The notes beneath the pieces were generated by a model. The model worked only from the letters and a program-made list of their open reading frames with translations, was not told the DNA's origin and made no database searches. Shown here piece after piece: positions 1,822 through 8,393 of a stretch of 8,393 nt of DNA. Position 1 is the stretch's first letter. Each line of letters opens with the position of its first letter. The stretch is from Hydrogenothermaceae bacterium (GTDB lineage: Bacteria > Aquificota > Aquificae > Hydrogenothermales > Hydrogenothermaceae). The translations under genes were made by a program, and so were the position numbers. The stretch is taken from positions 1-8,393 of the forward strand of contig JALSSE010000366.1 in NCBI GenBank assembly GCA_026984415.1, given 5' to 3'.

Positions 1822-1887
1822 GTGTAATTATCTCAATGATTTATTCTATATTAAAAGTTAGAACAAGTAAATTTCAGGAGGCAATTA

Positions 1888-2955
1888 ATGGCTTTACAGG
1901 GTGTAATGGATTCTTTGAAAAGAACCACTTTAGATGAAATCGGGGTAAGCTTTTCTTTAGCTGACCTTCTTAGGGACATAAAAATAAATGATGAAAATGT
2001 TGAAATTTTATTATTTTCTCCAAGTGAAAAATATTACGAATTTTTGCAGAAAAAAGCAGAAGAAGCTTTAAAATCTGTTGGAGCAAAAGAAGTGAAAGTT
2101 GAATTTACTTCAGAACCGCCAAAGCAACAACAACAGGCACCAACACCTCCACCACAGGAAAATCCATTTGAAAATAAAAAAAGAATACCAAAGGTTAAAA
2201 AAGTTATTGCCGTTGCTTCAGGTAAAGGTGGCGTTGGAAAATCAACAGTTGCAGTAAATCTTGCAGCAGCTTTAAAAAAGATGGGATACAACGTCGGTTA
2301 TTTAGATGCAGATATGTATGGTCCATCGGGTCCAACAATGCTTGGAGCAAAAGATAAACAGGTACTTGCAAAAGGGGATAACATATTTATAGCCCCAGAA
2401 AGCCATGGAATAAAAATTATGTCAATCGGTTTATTACTTCCTTCTGAAGACACTCCAGTAATATGGAGAGGTCCTGTTCTATTTAAAGCTTTAAGTCAAT
2501 TTTTATTTGATATAGATTGGGGAGAAGAAGAACTTGATTTCTTAGTAATTGATTTACCACCGGGAACTGGTGATGTCCAGATAACACTTGGTCAGACTGC
2601 TGAAATAGACGGTGCTATAATTGTAACAACACCTCAAGATGTTGCCTTAATTGACGTAAAAAAAGGAATACAGATGTTTAACGAAGTTGAAATACCTATA
2701 TTAGGAATAGTTGAAAATATGTCTTTCTTTGTATGTCCAGACAATAACAAAAAGTACGAAATTTTTGGAAAAAGTAAAACAGAAGAGATTGCAAAGCAGT
2801 ATGGAACAGAAATATTAGCCAAAGTTCCAATAGAACCAAAAGTTGCAGAATTTGGAGATTTAGGAGTACCAATTGTACTTGCCAAACCTGATTCTGAATC
2901 ATCAAAAGCATTTATGGAAGCAGCACAAAATTTAATAAAAAGATTAAGCCAATAA
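1888..2955 (+). CDS. mrp: Mrp/ApbC/NBP35-family P-loop ATPase, with the CxxC motif degenerate (CPDN)
   Basis: This belongs to the cytoplasmic ATPase family that carries and delivers iron-sulfur clusters. The start ATG has AGGAGG at 1876-1881, six bases upstream. Residues 1-75 resemble a shortened MIP18/DUF59 domain (IGVSFSLADLLRDIKI, ENVEILL, AEEALKSVGAKEVKVEF) without the usual Asp-Pro-Glu and cysteine motifs. A Pro/Gln-rich linker covers about 77-95. The ATPase follows, with deviant Walker A GKGGVGKST (112-120), YLDADMYGPSGPT (138-150), WRGPVLFKALSQF (193-205) and switch II DLPPGTGD (222-229). At the family's cluster-binding site the sequence is ENMSFFVCPDN, so C283 is kept but the second cysteine is N286. 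C283 is the only cysteine in all 355 residues. The downstream IscS-like gene starts 14 bases after the stop, so the pair probably forms one operon. Family membership is certain; classical cluster carriage is not. Confidence 0.93.
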   Translation: MALQGVMDSLKRTTLDEIGVSFSLADLLRDIKINDENVEILLFSPSEKYYEFLQKKAEEALKSVGAKEVKVEFTSEPPKQQQQAPTPPPQENPFENKKRIPKVKKVIAVASGKGGVGKSTVAVNLAAALKKMGYNVGYLDADMYGPSGPTMLGAKDKQVLAKGDNIFIAPESHGIKIMSIGLLLPSEDTPVIWRGPVLFKALSQFLFDIDWGEEELDFLVIDLPPGTGDVQITLGQTAEIDGAIIVTTPQDVALIDVKKGIQMFNEVEIPILGIVENMSFFVCPDNNKKYEIFGKSKTEEIAKQYGTEILAKVPIEPKVAEFGDLGVPIVLAKPDSESSKAFMEAAQNLIKRLSQ

Positions 2956-2969
2956 GGAGGTTTTAACTT

Positions 2970-4187
2970 ATGATAGGAGACAAAGTTTACGTAGACCATT
3001 TAGCAACAACTCCAGTAGCAGATGAAGTTATTGAAGCAATGATGCCATATTTTAAAGAAAAATTTGGAAATCCAACTTCATTACATACATTAGGTGTAGA
3101 AGCAAAAAAAGCTATTAACAAAGCAAGAGAACAGGTTGCAGAACTTTTAAATGTTGGACAACCAGAAGAAATAGTATTTACATCAGGTGCAATTGAGGCA
3201 AACAACCTTGCAATAAAAGGTTTTGCAAAAGCTCCAGGAATTACAAGGAGAGGAAAACATATAGTTGTATCAGCCCTTGAACACCACTCTGTTTTACACT
3301 CAGCAAAAACATTAGAAAAGGAAGGGTTTGAAGTTACAACAGTTCATCCTGATGAGTATGGAATAATAGACCCTGAAAAATTAGCGGAAGCTGTAAGAAA
3401 AGATACAATTTTAGTTTCTGTTGGTTTTGCAAATAGGGAAATTGGAACTATTCAAGATATGCCTGCACTTGTTGCAGCTGTAAAAGAAAAAAATCCAAGA
3501 ACAGTATTCCACTCTGATATTGCAGCGGCAGTAGGACATATGCCTGTTGATATTGAAGGATGGGGACTTGATATGGCTTCTTTCACAGGACATTACTTCT
3601 ATGCCCCAAAAGGAGTAGGAGGATTATATGTTAAAAAAGGAGTAAGACTAAAACCATTAATAGAAGGTGGAATTCAAGAAGGTGGAAGAAGAGCAGGAAC
3701 AGAAAATGTACCGGGAATAGTTGGAATGGGTGCAGCAGCTGAACTTGCTATAAAAGAAATGGACGACAGAGTAAACAGATTAAAATATTTAAGGGATAAA
3801 TTGAAAAAAGGTATTGAAGAAAGAATTCCGTATATAAAATTCACAGGTCATCCTGAAAAAAGACTGCCAAACCATTTATCTTTAATTGTTATGTATATAG
3901 AAGGTGAGGCAATGCTATTAATGTTAAATATTAAGAAAACCTATACTGCTTCTGGTTCTGCATGTGTTTCATACGCATTAAAACAATCCCACGTATTAGC
4001 AGCTGTTGGCGTTGGTGCAGAAGAATCTAACGGTTCAATCGTTTTCTCTTTAGGTAGAGACAATACAGAAGAAGACATAGATTACATCATTGAAGAATAT
4101 CCAAAAGTTATCCAGAGATTAAGAGAGATTTCACCATTTGGTCCTGAAAACTGGGATGAATTTGTTAAAAAATCTTCTAAACATTAA
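2970..4187 (+). CDS. IscS/NifS-fold protein lacking the PLP-binding lysine (cysteine desulfurase homologue, probably not a conventional desulfurase)
   Basis: The 405 residues align from end to end with IscS/NifS cysteine desulfurases, which release sulfur from cysteine for Fe-S assembly. Family landmarks are present: ATTPVADEV (12-20), FGNPTSLHTLG (32-42), EIVFTSGAIEANNLAIKG (67-84), EHHSVLH (104-110), REIGTIQD (156-163), HSDIAAAVG (181-189), RRAGTENVPGIVGMG (240-254) and the cysteine loop SGSACVS (328-334, C332). The PLP lysine of the SGHK motif is replaced: the sequence is TGHYFYAPKGVG, with H208 kept and Y209 in the Lys position (codon TAC at 3594-3596). Compared from memory with E. coli IscS, three other cofactor contacts also differ: Thr76 is Ile75, Asn155 is Arg156 and Gln183 is Ala186. 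Asp183, His105 and C332 remain. A ribosome site AAGGAGG (2954-2960) overlaps the mrp stop, so translation is probably coupled to mrp. Standard annotation would say cysteine desulfurase; I infer a cofactor-free scaffold or partner. Confidence 0.9.
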   Translation: MIGDKVYVDHLATTPVADEVIEAMMPYFKEKFGNPTSLHTLGVEAKKAINKAREQVAELLNVGQPEEIVFTSGAIEANNLAIKGFAKAPGITRRGKHIVVSALEHHSVLHSAKTLEKEGFEVTTVHPDEYGIIDPEKLAEAVRKDTILVSVGFANREIGTIQDMPALVAAVKEKNPRTVFHSDIAAAVGHMPVDIEGWGLDMASFTGHYFYAPKGVGGLYVKKGVRLKPLIEGGIQEGGRRAGTENVPGIVGMGAAAELAIKEMDDRVNRLKYLRDKLKKGIEERIPYIKFTGHPEKRLPNHLSLIVMYIEGEAMLLMLNIKKTYTASGSACVSYALKQSHVLAAVGVGAEESNGSIVFSLGRDNTEEDIDYIIEEYPKVIQRLREISPFGPENWDEFVKKSSKH

Positions 4188-5191
4188 TTGAAAGGAGGAT
4201 TCTTTCCTCCCTTTTTTATTTTTTTAATAATTTCTTCAACAAATTTTTCTTCAACTTCCACATCGTAAAGAAGAGCGTATATATTTTTTTTGTTTATTTT
4301 TATAATGTCTTTTTCAGTCGTTAAGTATAAATCTGCTTCTGGGAGTTTTACGTCTTTATAATCGTAATGGTCTGGAAATTCTAAAAATTCTTTTATTTCA
4401 AAATTGTACTTTTTAGACAAATTTTTGACTGTACTGAAAAACTGCTTATTATTCCCAAGTCCTGAAAAAACAACAGCTTTTTTATTTTCTAAAATCTTAA
4501 AATCAAACTGTTTTCCTTCACAATCAATTAAACCTGTAAATTTTTCCTCTGTAAAAAAGAAAGGTTTTTTTAAATTTTTCAATTTATTTTTAATTTCATT
4601 TAGCCTGCTTTCAGAAACGGACAATAGTTTCGTTACAACAATAAAATCTGCATATTTGTAAAAAGACTTTGGTTCTCTCAATCTACCTAAAGGTAAGAGA
4701 TTATCTTCCCAGAATGGTTTAATAGCATCCGTCACTAAAATATTTACATCTCTGTAAAGTTGATAATGCTGAAAACCATCATCTAAAATAAAAATATCAA
4801 CTTCTAACTCTTTTAAAGCTTTAATTCCTGCTTCATACCTCTTTTTACCTACAACAACTGGGATACCTCTTCTGGCAATAATATAAGGCTCATCTCCAGA
4901 TTCTTCCCAGCTTACTTTTATATTTTTTCCATCAGAAACGATTATTGTTTCGTCTGTTTTTCTTTTATATCCCCTTGATAATACACAGGGTTTAAAACCT
5001 TTTTTTTGAAGTTCTTTAGCCAAGAAAATTGTTAAAGGTGTTTTTCCTGTTCCGCCAACTGATAAATTTCCTATTGAAATAACAGGTAAAGGCAAATGTT
5101 TCTTTTTAAGGATACCTTTTTCATACAAAAATCTCCGTAAAAAAGCAAAAAAACCGTATAAATAAGACAGTAATTTGAGAAAAATTTTCAT
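4184..5191 (-). CDS. lpxK: Tetraacyldisaccharide 4'-kinase LpxK (lipid A biosynthesis)
   Basis: LpxK phosphorylates the 4' position of the tetraacyldisaccharide 1-phosphate precursor of lipid A, on the cytoplasmic face of the inner membrane. The protein has 335 residues, the normal family length. An N-terminal hydrophobic/amphipathic helix (1-22) is followed by LPLPVISIGNLSVGGTGKTP, which contains the P-loop (about 41-52, Lys50). Next come LSRGYKRK (71-78), SGDEPYIIARR (98-108, containing the catalytic-region Asp100), ILDDGFQHYQL (135-145), LPLGRLREP (166-174) and FPDHYDY. The start is ATG at 5189-5191, with AGGA eight bases upstream (plus-strand 5200-5203). A TTG at 5228-5230 would add 13 residues but has no ribosome site and falls before the usual family start. 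It converges with the IscS-like gene: the two TAA stops overlap within TTAA at 4184-4187. No terminator is visible beyond its own stop. It indicates an LPS- or lipid A-bearing outer membrane. Confidence 0.95.
   Translation of the reverse strand: MKIFLKLLSYLYGFFAFLRRFLYEKGILKKKHLPLPVISIGNLSVGGTGKTPLTIFLAKELQKKGFKPCVLSRGYKRKTDETIIVSDGKNIKVSWEESGDEPYIIARRGIPVVVGKKRYEAGIKALKELEVDIFILDDGFQHYQLYRDVNILVTDAIKPFWEDNLLPLGRLREPKSFYKYADFIVVTKLLSVSESRLNEIKNKLKNLKKPFFFTEEKFTGLIDCEGKQFDFKILENKKAVVFSGLGNNKQFFSTVKNLSKKYNFEIKEFLEFPDHYDYKDVKLPEADLYLTTEKDIIKINKKNIYALLYDVEVEEKFVEEIIKKIKKGGKNPPFN
4191..4226 (+). terminator. Rho-independent terminator of the mrp / IscS-like operon, inside the end of lpxK
   Basis: GGAGGA (4194-4199) and TCCTCC (4205-4210) form a six-pair stem around TTCTT. 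Flanking AAA and TTT can extend it past one bulged C. The stem is followed by T6 at 4212-4217 and a further T-rich run. It begins a few bases after the IscS-like stop codon on the plus strand. The same bases encode the last residues of lpxK on the other strand. Confidence 0.75.
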
Positions 5192-5336: not shown

Positions 5337-7658
5337 ATGGAAATAAAAAAAGTGTTTCTTAAAAGGTGGATTAGATTGTCAGTATTTATGTCTATTGTTT
5401 TAATTTTATTCTCAATTTTTTCTTGTGGTGGTGCTGCAGACCAGACATCTACCCAGTCATTAGAACAGTATCCAGAAGAAATCATAACAGACCAATCTTT
5501 ATCACAGTATAAAATCTATGTTTTAGGAAATGACAATGCCCTTAATTTTGCCGCAAAAGAATTATCTGAAAGATTATCAAAACTTACCAAAACAGATATA
5601 AAAATCTATCAGGAAAATTTCTTTAGAAAAGAATTCCTCAATGAAAAAGCAATAATTTTAGGAACAGAAAAAAATATAAATTTATTAAAGGCTTTAAATT
5701 CATCTTTAAAAACAACAAAAGACGAAGCTTTCTTACTGAAAAGTAAAGGAAATAGTCTTATTATAATCGGTAAAAAACCTATTGGAACAATTTACGGGGT
5801 TTATGAATTTTTAGAAAAATATGTAGGTTTTAAATGGTTATCAAAAGATTATGAATATATACCAAAGAATGTTAATTTTGATTTGTCTAAAATAAATGAG
5901 ATAAATAAGCCACGATTTATATATAGAGAAGTATTTATAAATGAAGGTGATAATCCTGATTTCGCATTAAAATTAAGAGACAACGGAAGGTTAGGACACA
6001 GAAATTTAATTCCTTTAAAATATGGAAATGTATTTATAAAAGGAGCACATGAATTAATACCTGAAAAATATAAAAAATCACACCCTGAATTTTTCTGTGG
6101 TGGTCAGTTAGATTACACTTTAAACAAGGTAAAAAAAATTGCTTTAAAAAGTGTAAATAGAGAATTAAAAAAGCTTGATAATTCTATACATTACTACTTT
6201 GTAATTGGACACAGGGATATAGGTTCTTACTGTACAAATGATATGAGTAGAAGAAGTATCAAAAGAGGAGGTTCACCGGCAACTCCTTATATTGAATTTG
6301 TAAGTTATATTGCAAGAAAGCTAAAAGACAGATATCCAAATGTTACTTTTTTAGCATCAGCTTACCAGTGGAGTAGAAAACCGCCTAACTCTACCGTTTC
6401 TATACCAGATAATATGGGAATATTTTTCTCTGACATAGATGCAGATTTTTCAAAACCATTAAAACATCTTGTTAACAGACATATTTTAAATGATTTAAAT
6501 GGATGGACTAAACTTACAAAACATATCCTTATATGGCATTACATAACTAATTTTAATAATTACTTGCAACCATTTCCAAATATTAAAGCTACATACATAG
6601 ACATAAAAACATTTGCAAAAATACCTGAAGTTAAAGGTATATTTTTACAGGGAGCTTATGGTCAGGTTACAGGTGATTTATCTGATTTAAAGCTGTGGGT
6701 TTTTTCAAAACTGCTATGGAATCCAAACCAAAAATTAGGTGATTTACTGAGGGAATTTACAAATTATTACTACGGAAAAGGTGCACCTTATATAAGAAAA
6801 TACATAACATTAACTTACAAATCTATAAGGAATAATCCAACTCCGTTATTTGCAAAAACACCTCCATCTGTACCTTACTTAAATGTTGAGTATTTTATCA
6901 AAGCAGAAGATTTATTTAATAAAGCCTTAAAAGCAGTAAAAGGGAATAAAGAATTAGAAAACAGAATTAAAAAAGCCAAATTAAGTGTTGATGTATTGCT
7001 CCTTTTAAATAAAGGAAAATTAGAAAACGAAGCAATGGAAAAAGGTCTTCCGTGGTTTGATGAAGCATATTTACAAAACTTACTTGAAGAAGTAAAACAA
7101 ACAATTAAAAGGGAAAATTTAAAAGGCTATTCAGAAGGAGGTAAAATTGAAGATTTAATTCAGATTTTATCCTTAAATAGAAAAGCGGCGTATACTCCAG
7201 ATAAAGTTATAGGGTTGAAAGAAGGAAAAGACTGGTTTGATTTTCAGGAATACACATTAACAAACTGCTGTGGAACGAGATTAGAGGAAGACTATCTTGC
7301 TTCTGATGGTGTTGCCGTAACTTTACCGGGAAATACACCAGTTTGGGGAATACAGATGAACCTCGGTTATTTACCACCTGAAGGCAAATGGAAAATGTAT
7401 TTTAGAATTCGTATTTCTTTAAAGAAAAATGATATTAATCTAATAGATAAAATAAAATTTGCCTTTAGATACGGAGTTTATCCTTTAACAAGAGGACATG
7501 TTGGGTTTATTACAAGTTTTATTGATGAAGAATACCACACAGTAGAAATTGGAACTTTTGAAAGGAACAAGAATGCATCCCTTTGGATTGCACCACCAAA
7601 CAACGATTTAGTTGAAAAAATATACGTTGATAGGGTTTTCATAGTCAGGGAAAATTGA
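5337..7658 (+). CDS. Predicted lipoprotein with DUF4838 (GH67/GH20-like fold), possible glycan-active protein
   Basis: The reaction is unknown. The 773-residue protein begins with a basic, hydrophobic signal peptide ending in IFSC, so C30 is the likely lipidated cysteine. Residues about 58-180 form an alpha/beta domain like that before alpha-glucuronidase or GH20 barrels, ending in the signature YGVYEFLEKYVGFKWLS (153-169) and YIPKN. About 190-490 is the DUF4838 body: HPEFF (249-253), GQLDYTLNKVKKIA, FVIGHRDIGSYC (288-299), ASAYQWSRKPP (340-350), IWHYITNFNNYLQPFPN (399-415), KGIFLQGAYG and LLWNP with YYYGKGAPYIRKY. A helical part (about 510-615) leads to a beta-rich C-terminal module (about 625-773, ASDGVAVTLPGNTPVWGIQM) resembling the end module of other DUF4838 proteins. 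ATG at 5337 has AAGGTG seven bases upstream. It stands alone between divergent lpxK and the arsC operon. I infer an envelope location and action on exopolysaccharide. Confidence 0.82.
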   Translation: MEIKKVFLKRWIRLSVFMSIVLILFSIFSCGGAADQTSTQSLEQYPEEIITDQSLSQYKIYVLGNDNALNFAAKELSERLSKLTKTDIKIYQENFFRKEFLNEKAIILGTEKNINLLKALNSSLKTTKDEAFLLKSKGNSLIIIGKKPIGTIYGVYEFLEKYVGFKWLSKDYEYIPKNVNFDLSKINEINKPRFIYREVFINEGDNPDFALKLRDNGRLGHRNLIPLKYGNVFIKGAHELIPEKYKKSHPEFFCGGQLDYTLNKVKKIALKSVNRELKKLDNSIHYYFVIGHRDIGSYCTNDMSRRSIKRGGSPATPYIEFVSYIARKLKDRYPNVTFLASAYQWSRKPPNSTVSIPDNMGIFFSDIDADFSKPLKHLVNRHILNDLNGWTKLTKHILIWHYITNFNNYLQPFPNIKATYIDIKTFAKIPEVKGIFLQGAYGQVTGDLSDLKLWVFSKLLWNPNQKLGDLLREFTNYYYGKGAPYIRKYITLTYKSIRNNPTPLFAKTPPSVPYLNVEYFIKAEDLFNKALKAVKGNKELENRIKKAKLSVDVLLLLNKGKLENEAMEKGLPWFDEAYLQNLLEEVKQTIKRENLKGYSEGGKIEDLIQILSLNRKAAYTPDKVIGLKEGKDWFDFQEYTLTNCCGTRLEEDYLASDGVAVTLPGNTPVWGIQMNLGYLPPEGKWKMYFRIRISLKKNDINLIDKIKFAFRYGVYPLTRGHVGFITSFIDEEYHTVEIGTFERNKNASLWIAPPNNDLVEKIYVDRVFIVREN

Positions 7659-7730: not shown

Positions 7731-7762
7731 CATATAAATTAAATTTTATATGAGGTGTGAAA

Positions 7763-8041
7763 ATGAAAAAAAGAACAATAAAAGACGTCAGTGAAGTTAA
7801 AAAGACTGAGGGTGGTGTGGTTATTGAGGTGAAAGACAGTTCTGTGGAAGCTCAAAAAGTAAAAGAGATAGTAGAAAACTGCCAGACTGGAAAGTGTGAT
7901 TGTATGAGTGAAGAAACAAAACAAAAAGTGACATTTATGGATTTTAAAGCAGAAAATGGTAAAGTTGCTATTGAAATAAAAGGAGATTTAACTGAAGAAG
8001 AAATTAAAGAAGCAATGAACAGAAGTAAAAAAGAGTTGTAA
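7763..8041 (+). CDS. Small protein of unknown function with a C-x4-C-x-C motif, upstream of arsC
   Basis: I do not recognise this family. The 92-residue, highly charged protein has no signal peptide or membrane segment and is probably cytoplasmic. Its only cysteines, C40, C45 and C47 (NCQTGKCDCM), form a compact cluster that could bind a soft metal or metalloid. The two sides resemble each other: GGVVIEVKDSSVEAQKVKEIV (17-37) and GKVAIEIKGDLTEEEIKEAM (66-85) both read as a strand followed by a helix, suggesting internal duplication. The start is ATG at 7763-7765, with GAGGT (7752-7756) six bases upstream. The in-frame GTG at 7757 touches that ribosome site and is unlikely. The gene follows a strong promoter and ends 21 bases before arsC, so the two are probably co-transcribed. 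An arsenic- or metal-handling role is inference from this context and the cysteines. Confidence 0.75.
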   Translation: MKKRTIKDVSEVKKTEGGVVIEVKDSSVEAQKVKEIVENCQTGKCDCMSEETKQKVTFMDFKAENGKVAIEIKGDLTEEEIKEAMNRSKKEL

Positions 8042-8062: not shown

Positions 8063-8393
8063 ATGAGTATTAAAATAGGATTTATATGCACTGGAAACTC
8101 AGCAAGAAGTCAGATGGCTGAAGGATTTGGGAAATACTATACAAAAAAGCTTGGTAAAGGTATAGAAGTTTACTCTGCAGGTTCAAATCCATCTAAATAT
8201 GTTCATCCTTTAGCCATTGAAGTAATGAAAGAAAAAGGAATTGATATATCAAAAAATAAATCAAAATCTTTAGAAGATATACCTTTAAATGAACTTGATT
8301 ATGTTATAACTCTTTGTGGAGATGCTGCTGAAAACTGTCCTGTTATTCCAAATGCAAATACTATCCACTGGGGACTTCCTGACCCTGCAAAAG
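8063..8393 (+). CDS. arsC: Arsenate reductase ArsC, thioredoxin-coupled low-molecular-weight phosphatase type (3' end missing)
   Basis: This enzyme reduces arsenate to arsenite in the cytoplasm, with disulfide exchange through thioredoxin; arsenite is then normally exported. The first 110 residues are present. They show the P-loop CTGNSARSQMAEGFG (C9 to R15-S16), VYSAGSNP (37-43) and HPLAIEVMKEKGIDIS. The redox pair follows in ITLCGDAAENCP (C85 and C92, six residues apart), then HWGLPDPA with the general acid Asp107-Pro. This three-cysteine pattern separates it from plain protein tyrosine phosphatases of the same fold and matches the S. aureus pI258 ArsC type. The position equivalent to Cys15 of that enzyme is Ala14, which is not part of the catalytic relay. 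ATG at 8063 is preceded only by a weak GAGAT (8051-8055), so expression may depend partly on translation of the upstream small gene. About 25-30 residues are probably missing beyond the edge. Confidence 0.9.
   Translation, partial: MSIKIGFICTGNSARSQMAEGFGKYYTKKLGKGIEVYSAGSNPSKYVHPLAIEVMKEKGIDISKNKSKSLEDIPLNELDYVITLCGDAAENCPVIPNANTIHWGLPDPAK

Follow-up and report, generated by a model that had tools for sequence, protein, structure and literature searches.

The locus and its genes

The window, i.e. the whole stretch of 8,393 nt that was analysed, carries an uninterrupted reading frame from ATG to stop for an IscS/NifS homologue. The protein has the fold and the full-length homology of this family and retains the cysteine of the persulfide loop, while the Schiff-base lysine is absent. 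A gene for the P-loop ATPase Mrp/ApbC ends 14 nt before the iscS start, and a ribosome-binding site precedes the start codon. The features are as follows, with the basis of each in brackets.

1888..2955, + strand: mrp/apbC, encoding a P-loop ATPase that carries Fe-S clusters; next gene upstream of the lysine-less iscS (NCBIfam)
2954..2960, + strand: ribosome-binding site AAGGAGG, which overlaps the stop codon of mrp (read from the sequence)
2970..4187, + strand: lysine-less IscS, 405 amino acids (reading frame, homology)
3192..3194, + strand: codon of Ile75, E. coli Thr76 (alignment)
3435..3437, + strand: codon of Arg156, E. coli Asn155 (alignment)
3525..3527, + strand: codon of Ala186, E. coli Gln183 (alignment)
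3594..3596, + strand: codon TAC of Tyr209, E. coli Lys206, the Schiff-base lysine (codon read, alignment)
3963..3965, + strand: codon of Cys332, E. coli Cys328, in the sulfur-carrying loop (alignment)
4041..4043, + strand: codon of Val358, E. coli Arg354 (group comparison)
4119..4139, + strand: LREISPF tail, residues 384-390 (motif comparison)

The mrp/apbC product matches the NCBIfam models MrpORP and ApbC with E values of 1e-89 and 8e-87, below their curated cut-offs. The window IscS stays under the NCBIfam cut-off of every family listed (466.9 bits against 530.75 for NifS; 375.8 against 643.2 for IscS). Its top two protein matches show 99% and 90% identity, the second from Sulfurihydrogenibium sp., which places the window in a Hydrogenothermaceae-like member of the Aquificota. 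The closest genome, G085, has 84.7% DNA identity over window positions 1875-4188 and the same gene order, gspD-gspC-mrp-iscS-lpxK-DUF4838. An iscU adjoining the lysine-less iscS was not found in the window. Positions 5337-7658 (+) encode a 773-aa protein with a DUF4838 and a GH67 N-terminal domain, in which a cysteine after the hydrophobic start resembles a lipoprotein signal. A 94-aa reading frame at 7757-8041 (+) has no Pfam or NCBIfam match and is followed by an ArsC-type gene at 8063.

Active-site residues

The window protein is 44% identical to IscS of E. coli K-12 (NC_000913) over 390 columns. The two proteins have the fold, the cysteine loop and the tail in common, whereas Lys206, Thr76, Asn155, Gln183 and Arg354 of the E. 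coli enzyme are all replaced. Four of these replacements, Tyr for the Schiff-base lysine as well as Ile75, Arg156 and Ala186, had been claimed in an earlier note on this DNA and were confirmed residue for residue by the alignment. The same holds for the retention of Asp183 (E. coli Asp180), His105 (His104) and Cys332; His208 (His205) is also kept. The fifth replacement, Val358 at the position of Arg354, was absent from that note's list. In a group comparison using only rows with more than 380 aligned residues (91 of the 95 Aquificota orthologues), this site is Val in 92/92 lysine-less rows and Arg in 109/110 lysine-containing rows. Among the latter, 40 archaeal rows were chosen for His-Lys at the active site and have the lysine by construction; 69 rows from outside the Aquificota (L012-L080) were not chosen in this way. 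Gly152 for Met, Thr206 for Ser and Gln339 for Pro are further fixed differences of the lysine-less rows. According to PMC9978102, the E. coli variants K206A and Q183E are inactive, while R354K is still active. The Arg354 change alone is therefore weak proof.

Distribution in the Aquificota

Lysine is missing at the Lys206 site in all 121 proteins of a set consisting of the window protein and the 120 best-listed of 7972 matches (Tyr 36, Leu 84, Phe 1). Matches to the window protein occur in 102 of 136 Aquificota genomes, and the sequences from 101 were read. Orthologues, defined by >60% identity over >250 aligned residues, were obtained from 95 genomes. They carry Tyr (37), Leu (57) or Phe (1) at the site, in no case Lys, and Cys332 is kept in 95/95. 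Two fragments fall outside this set, G034 with Leu at the site and G099, which does not cover it; the site is thus readable in 96 genomes, the 95 plus G034. All 69 relatives outside the Aquificota possess the lysine. Given these counts, the loss is neither chance nor a read error. Within the Aquificota, this gene is the orthologue of iscS. The bacterial lysine-less IscS postulated in the earlier note is thus real; it is not a lone case, being the orthologue of a whole lineage of the phylum.

The C-terminal LRxxSP motif, which from work on E. coli IscS we take to be the IscU-binding element, is present in 91/91 full-length lysine-less orthologues and in 0/32 full-length lysine-containing NifS paralogues of the phylum. 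It also occurs in 54 of the 69 relatives outside the Aquificota and in 36 of the 40 archaeal lysine-containing IscS proteins.

Fe-S cluster assembly context

In 60 of the 62 Aquificota loci that extend over 4.5 kb or more, the next gene upstream is mrp, on the same strand; G061 and G029, the latter a fragment at a contig start, deviate from this. IscU (PF01592) is encoded in 98 of 136 Aquificota genomes, comprising 92 of the 96 with the lysine-less gene and six others. By hand count, iscU is located within 4 kb downstream of the lysine-less gene in 27/37 Tyr-form genomes. The ligand motifs are present in 30/30 IscU proteins examined. With mrp upstream and iscU nearby in relatives, the setting fits the role in Fe-S assembly suggested earlier. 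SufBD was found in 29/136 genomes, none of which has IscU or the lysine-less gene. SUF as a second scaffold beside the lysine-less gene was thus rejected: among the 136 genomes it was not found in any with that gene. As an observation in its own right, ISC and SUF are mutually exclusive in this set (IscU 98, SufBD 29, both 0).

A PP-loop gene with a tRNA_Me_trans/ThiI-like and an NFACT-R_2 domain (located at L127:1893-3005) is separated from iscU by about 100 bp and has the same orientation in 10/10 genomes (G041, G042, G044, G047, G048, G050, G062, G064, G069 and G101). Its product is possibly a tRNA thiolase taking sulfur from IscU or from the cluster of IscU.

Lysine-containing paralogues

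A second, lysine-containing NifS, for which the earlier note had suggested a search, exists in most Tyr-form genomes (28/37), the closest genome G085 included. The window protein and this NifS are about 35% identical. Its neighbours in G085 encode TsaD-family, KaiC, Yip1 and MgtE proteins and give no hint of its role. Only 6/59 Leu/Phe-form genomes possess such a NifS, and one more contains a fragment. At the level of the phylum, the inactive-looking IscS is the conserved protein and the lysine-containing NifS the dispensable one. In two genomes with the lysine-less gene, the lysine-containing NifS is split into two frames (G090:C1:1692834-1693963, L352; G010:C17:37044-37810, L099). The lysine-less gene of G010 is also broken, near residue 365, and draft errors are possible there.

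Nine of the ten genomes listed above, all except G044, are single-contig genomes, with a main contig equal to the genome size as rounded. No lysine-containing IscS, NifS or SufS was found among their PF00266 matches (E to 1e-3), an absence that refers to desulfurases of the PF00266 fold. The lysine-less protein of G041 is the one named for Hydrogenobacter thermophilus TK-6. A NifS or SufS hidden among other class V enzymes was considered and rejected for the nine genomes, as the remaining PF00266 matches are of the BhcA/AGXT, GcvPA/B, AspAT, ArgD and DegT types. These were typed by NCBIfam (10 matches, one from G044), by reading the sequence or by BLAST to those already typed; the typing covers all but three weak matches (17.6-22.5 bits; G064, G069, G101) and L387 and L388 (17.5 bits). 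An MnmA-type gene is kept in 10/10 genomes, the nine plus G044. Another source of sulfur may therefore be required for the thiolation of tRNA as well.

The paralogues bear on a rival explanation, in which Cys332 accepts persulfide from a lysine-containing NifS or a sulfane carrier and passes it to IscU. The protein would then act as a sulfurtransferase and not as a cluster ligand. The strict conservation of Cys332 agrees with such a relay, as does the NifS of the Tyr-form genomes, which lacks the IscU tail. The scarcity of this NifS in Leu/Phe-form genomes and its absence from the PF00266 matches of the nine single-contig genomes speak against it, and the relay is considered rather improbable.

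Additional lysine-less copies were observed. A second paralogue that has also lost His205 (FDGPSLLGP-type motif) occurs at L257-L260 (G041, G047, G040, G062) and falls within the Aquificota lysine-less group. A diverged copy with the motif FAGHYFYAPHYS and 49% identity is encoded at L263 (G043:C112), in addition to a normal copy of the Leu form.

The remodelled cofactor pocket

Half of the PLP site is invariant: His104, Asp180, His205, Thr243 and Ser203 (as Thr; E. coli numbering) are fixed in 92/92 lysine-less rows. The pocket is therefore not to be taken as empty, nor the cofactor-free state proposed in the earlier note as given, and judging from these residues, PMP/PLP or another ligand could bind. 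This leads to a second rival explanation, namely that PMP, PLP or another small ligand is held non-covalently by Arg156, His105, Asp183 and His208, serving stability, sensing or an altered reaction. Arg156 is likewise invariant in 92/92 rows, and the lysine-less IscS of Archaeoglobus fulgidus is said to bind PMP. Some PLP is retained by E. coli IscS K206A (PMC9978102). The contacts of Thr76, Asn155, Gln183 and Lys206 are gone, though, and the Gln183 site is Pro in many lysine-less rows; such a ligand-binding role appears distinctly unlikely.

Relation to the lysine-less IscS of Archaea

IscS of A. fulgidus is inactive through a Lys to Asp replacement and provides a cysteine ligand to the IscU cluster, and IscS1 of Methanosarcina acetivorans also lacks the lysine, as PMC7585200 reports. 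The absence of the lysine is what M. acetivorans IscS1 and the window protein have in common. A. fulgidus IscS2 (P0179; PDB 4eb5, 4eb7 and 4hvk; D199K variant 4r5f) shares more with the window protein: the missing PLP lysine, Ala for Gln, the loop cysteine, the LRxxSP tail and the loss of Arg354. The Ala and the GHPEKRLPN motif, cited in the earlier note, were indeed found in P0179. In a comparison of structures, the lysine-less A. fulgidus IscS ranked first, in a tie with IscS of human and E. coli, which scored less than 1 Z lower; the predicted structure of the window protein was built from 41 of the 121 proteins, with a pLDDT <50 in the cysteine loop.

The substitutions differ between the two groups. 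In the archaeal set around A. fulgidus, Lys is replaced by Asp and His205 by Asn, and Thr76 is retained (119/120 matches). The Aquificota clade retains His205 and carries Tyr or Leu at the lysine site, with Ile at the site of Thr76 and Arg at that of Asn155. In the tree, a check that the earlier note had suggested, the lysine-less homologues of the Aquificota group together, while the A. fulgidus clade stands apart; the supports of the two groups are 100/100 and 100/99. Their union in one clade gave p 0.0396 in the AU test, a marginal value. A common origin with the A. fulgidus protein is thus disfavoured, if marginally. The lysine was probably lost separately in the Aquificota, with different substitutions.

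Nine pairs of the window gene with relatives gave dN of 0.02-0.10 and dS of 1.1-2.7; the resulting dN/dS of about 0.02-0.08 is rough because dS exceeds 1. The loss is old and under purifying selection, which upholds the earlier view of selection and not decay. A sequencing error or a decaying gene is practically excluded by the same losses in 95/95 orthologues, the intact frame and these ratios.

Structures and literature

Seven PDB chains of an Aquifex-type homologue (9wep, 9wer, 9wew, 9wf8, 9wfb, 9wfe and 9wfy) are deposited as cysteine desulfurase. The chain 9wfy aligns with window residues 6-401; it is lysine-less and has Arg156, Pro186 and Val358 as in the Leu form, with Leu at the lysine site where the window protein has Tyr. 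In the other six, at least two of the changed sites have the canonical residue, presumably by engineering. All are absent from the matches of the fold comparison, whose library ends in April 2026, and are therefore probably newer. Their existence indicates that the Aquifex-type clade is under study by others. A literature search, with subscription journals mostly outside its scope, yielded nothing on lysine-less IscS in Aquificota and no paper for 9wep-9wfy.

Proposed function

The protein is probably a platform that does not desulfurate: it would hold IscU and offer Cys332 to the cluster as this forms, and the sulfur would be delivered as sulfide or sulfane. The residue losses, their conservation throughout the phylum, the position of mrp, the retained tail and Cys332, the absence of SufBD from genomes with the gene and the lack of a lysine-containing desulfurase among the PF00266 matches of the nine single-contig genomes are observations; the loss of activity, the binding of IscU, the ligation of the cluster, the source of sulfur and the part played by Mrp are deduced from homology and conservation. 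In an ancestor of the Aquificota lineage, the PLP lysine disappeared together with three other PLP contacts and Arg354, and most likely cysteine desulfuration with them. Since then the protein would have served the ISC scaffold as a dimeric platform. The LRxxSP tail may be the docking site of IscU, and the Cys332 loop may reach into IscU to cap or ligate a [2Fe-2S] cluster in the making, on the model of A. fulgidus. The sulfur would take another route, either as sulfide or as the sulfane sulfur of another protein. Mrp, encoded just upstream, may carry the cluster onward. The invariant half of the PLP site and the lack of an adjoining iscU in the window count against this platform, as does the NifS of the Tyr-form genomes, which could supply persulfide.

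A wider proposal is put forward tentatively, as a serious possibility. ISC-bearing Aquificota may build Fe-S clusters without a cysteine desulfurase, the lysine-less IscS, IscU and Mrp taking sulfide or sulfane directly. Several members, H. thermophilus TK-6 for instance, would manage without any lysine-containing IscS, NifS or SufS, and this ISC variant would have arisen independently in bacteria and in archaea.

Significance

Cysteine desulfurases are regarded as the near-universal entry of sulfur into bacterial Fe-S clusters and thiolated tRNA. The name "cysteine desulfurase" on the lysine-less proteins of Aquificota appears to be misleading. If the proposed function is true, the scaffold role of IscS is separable from catalysis, with a strictly conserved ISC core in genomes where SufBD was not found. 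The Aquificota would then offer bacterial systems for testing the direct use of sulfide, as reported for Methanococcus (PMC7585200). The findings suggest that IscS acts as a platform throughout a large group of thermophilic bacteria and that their cluster sulfur has another origin.
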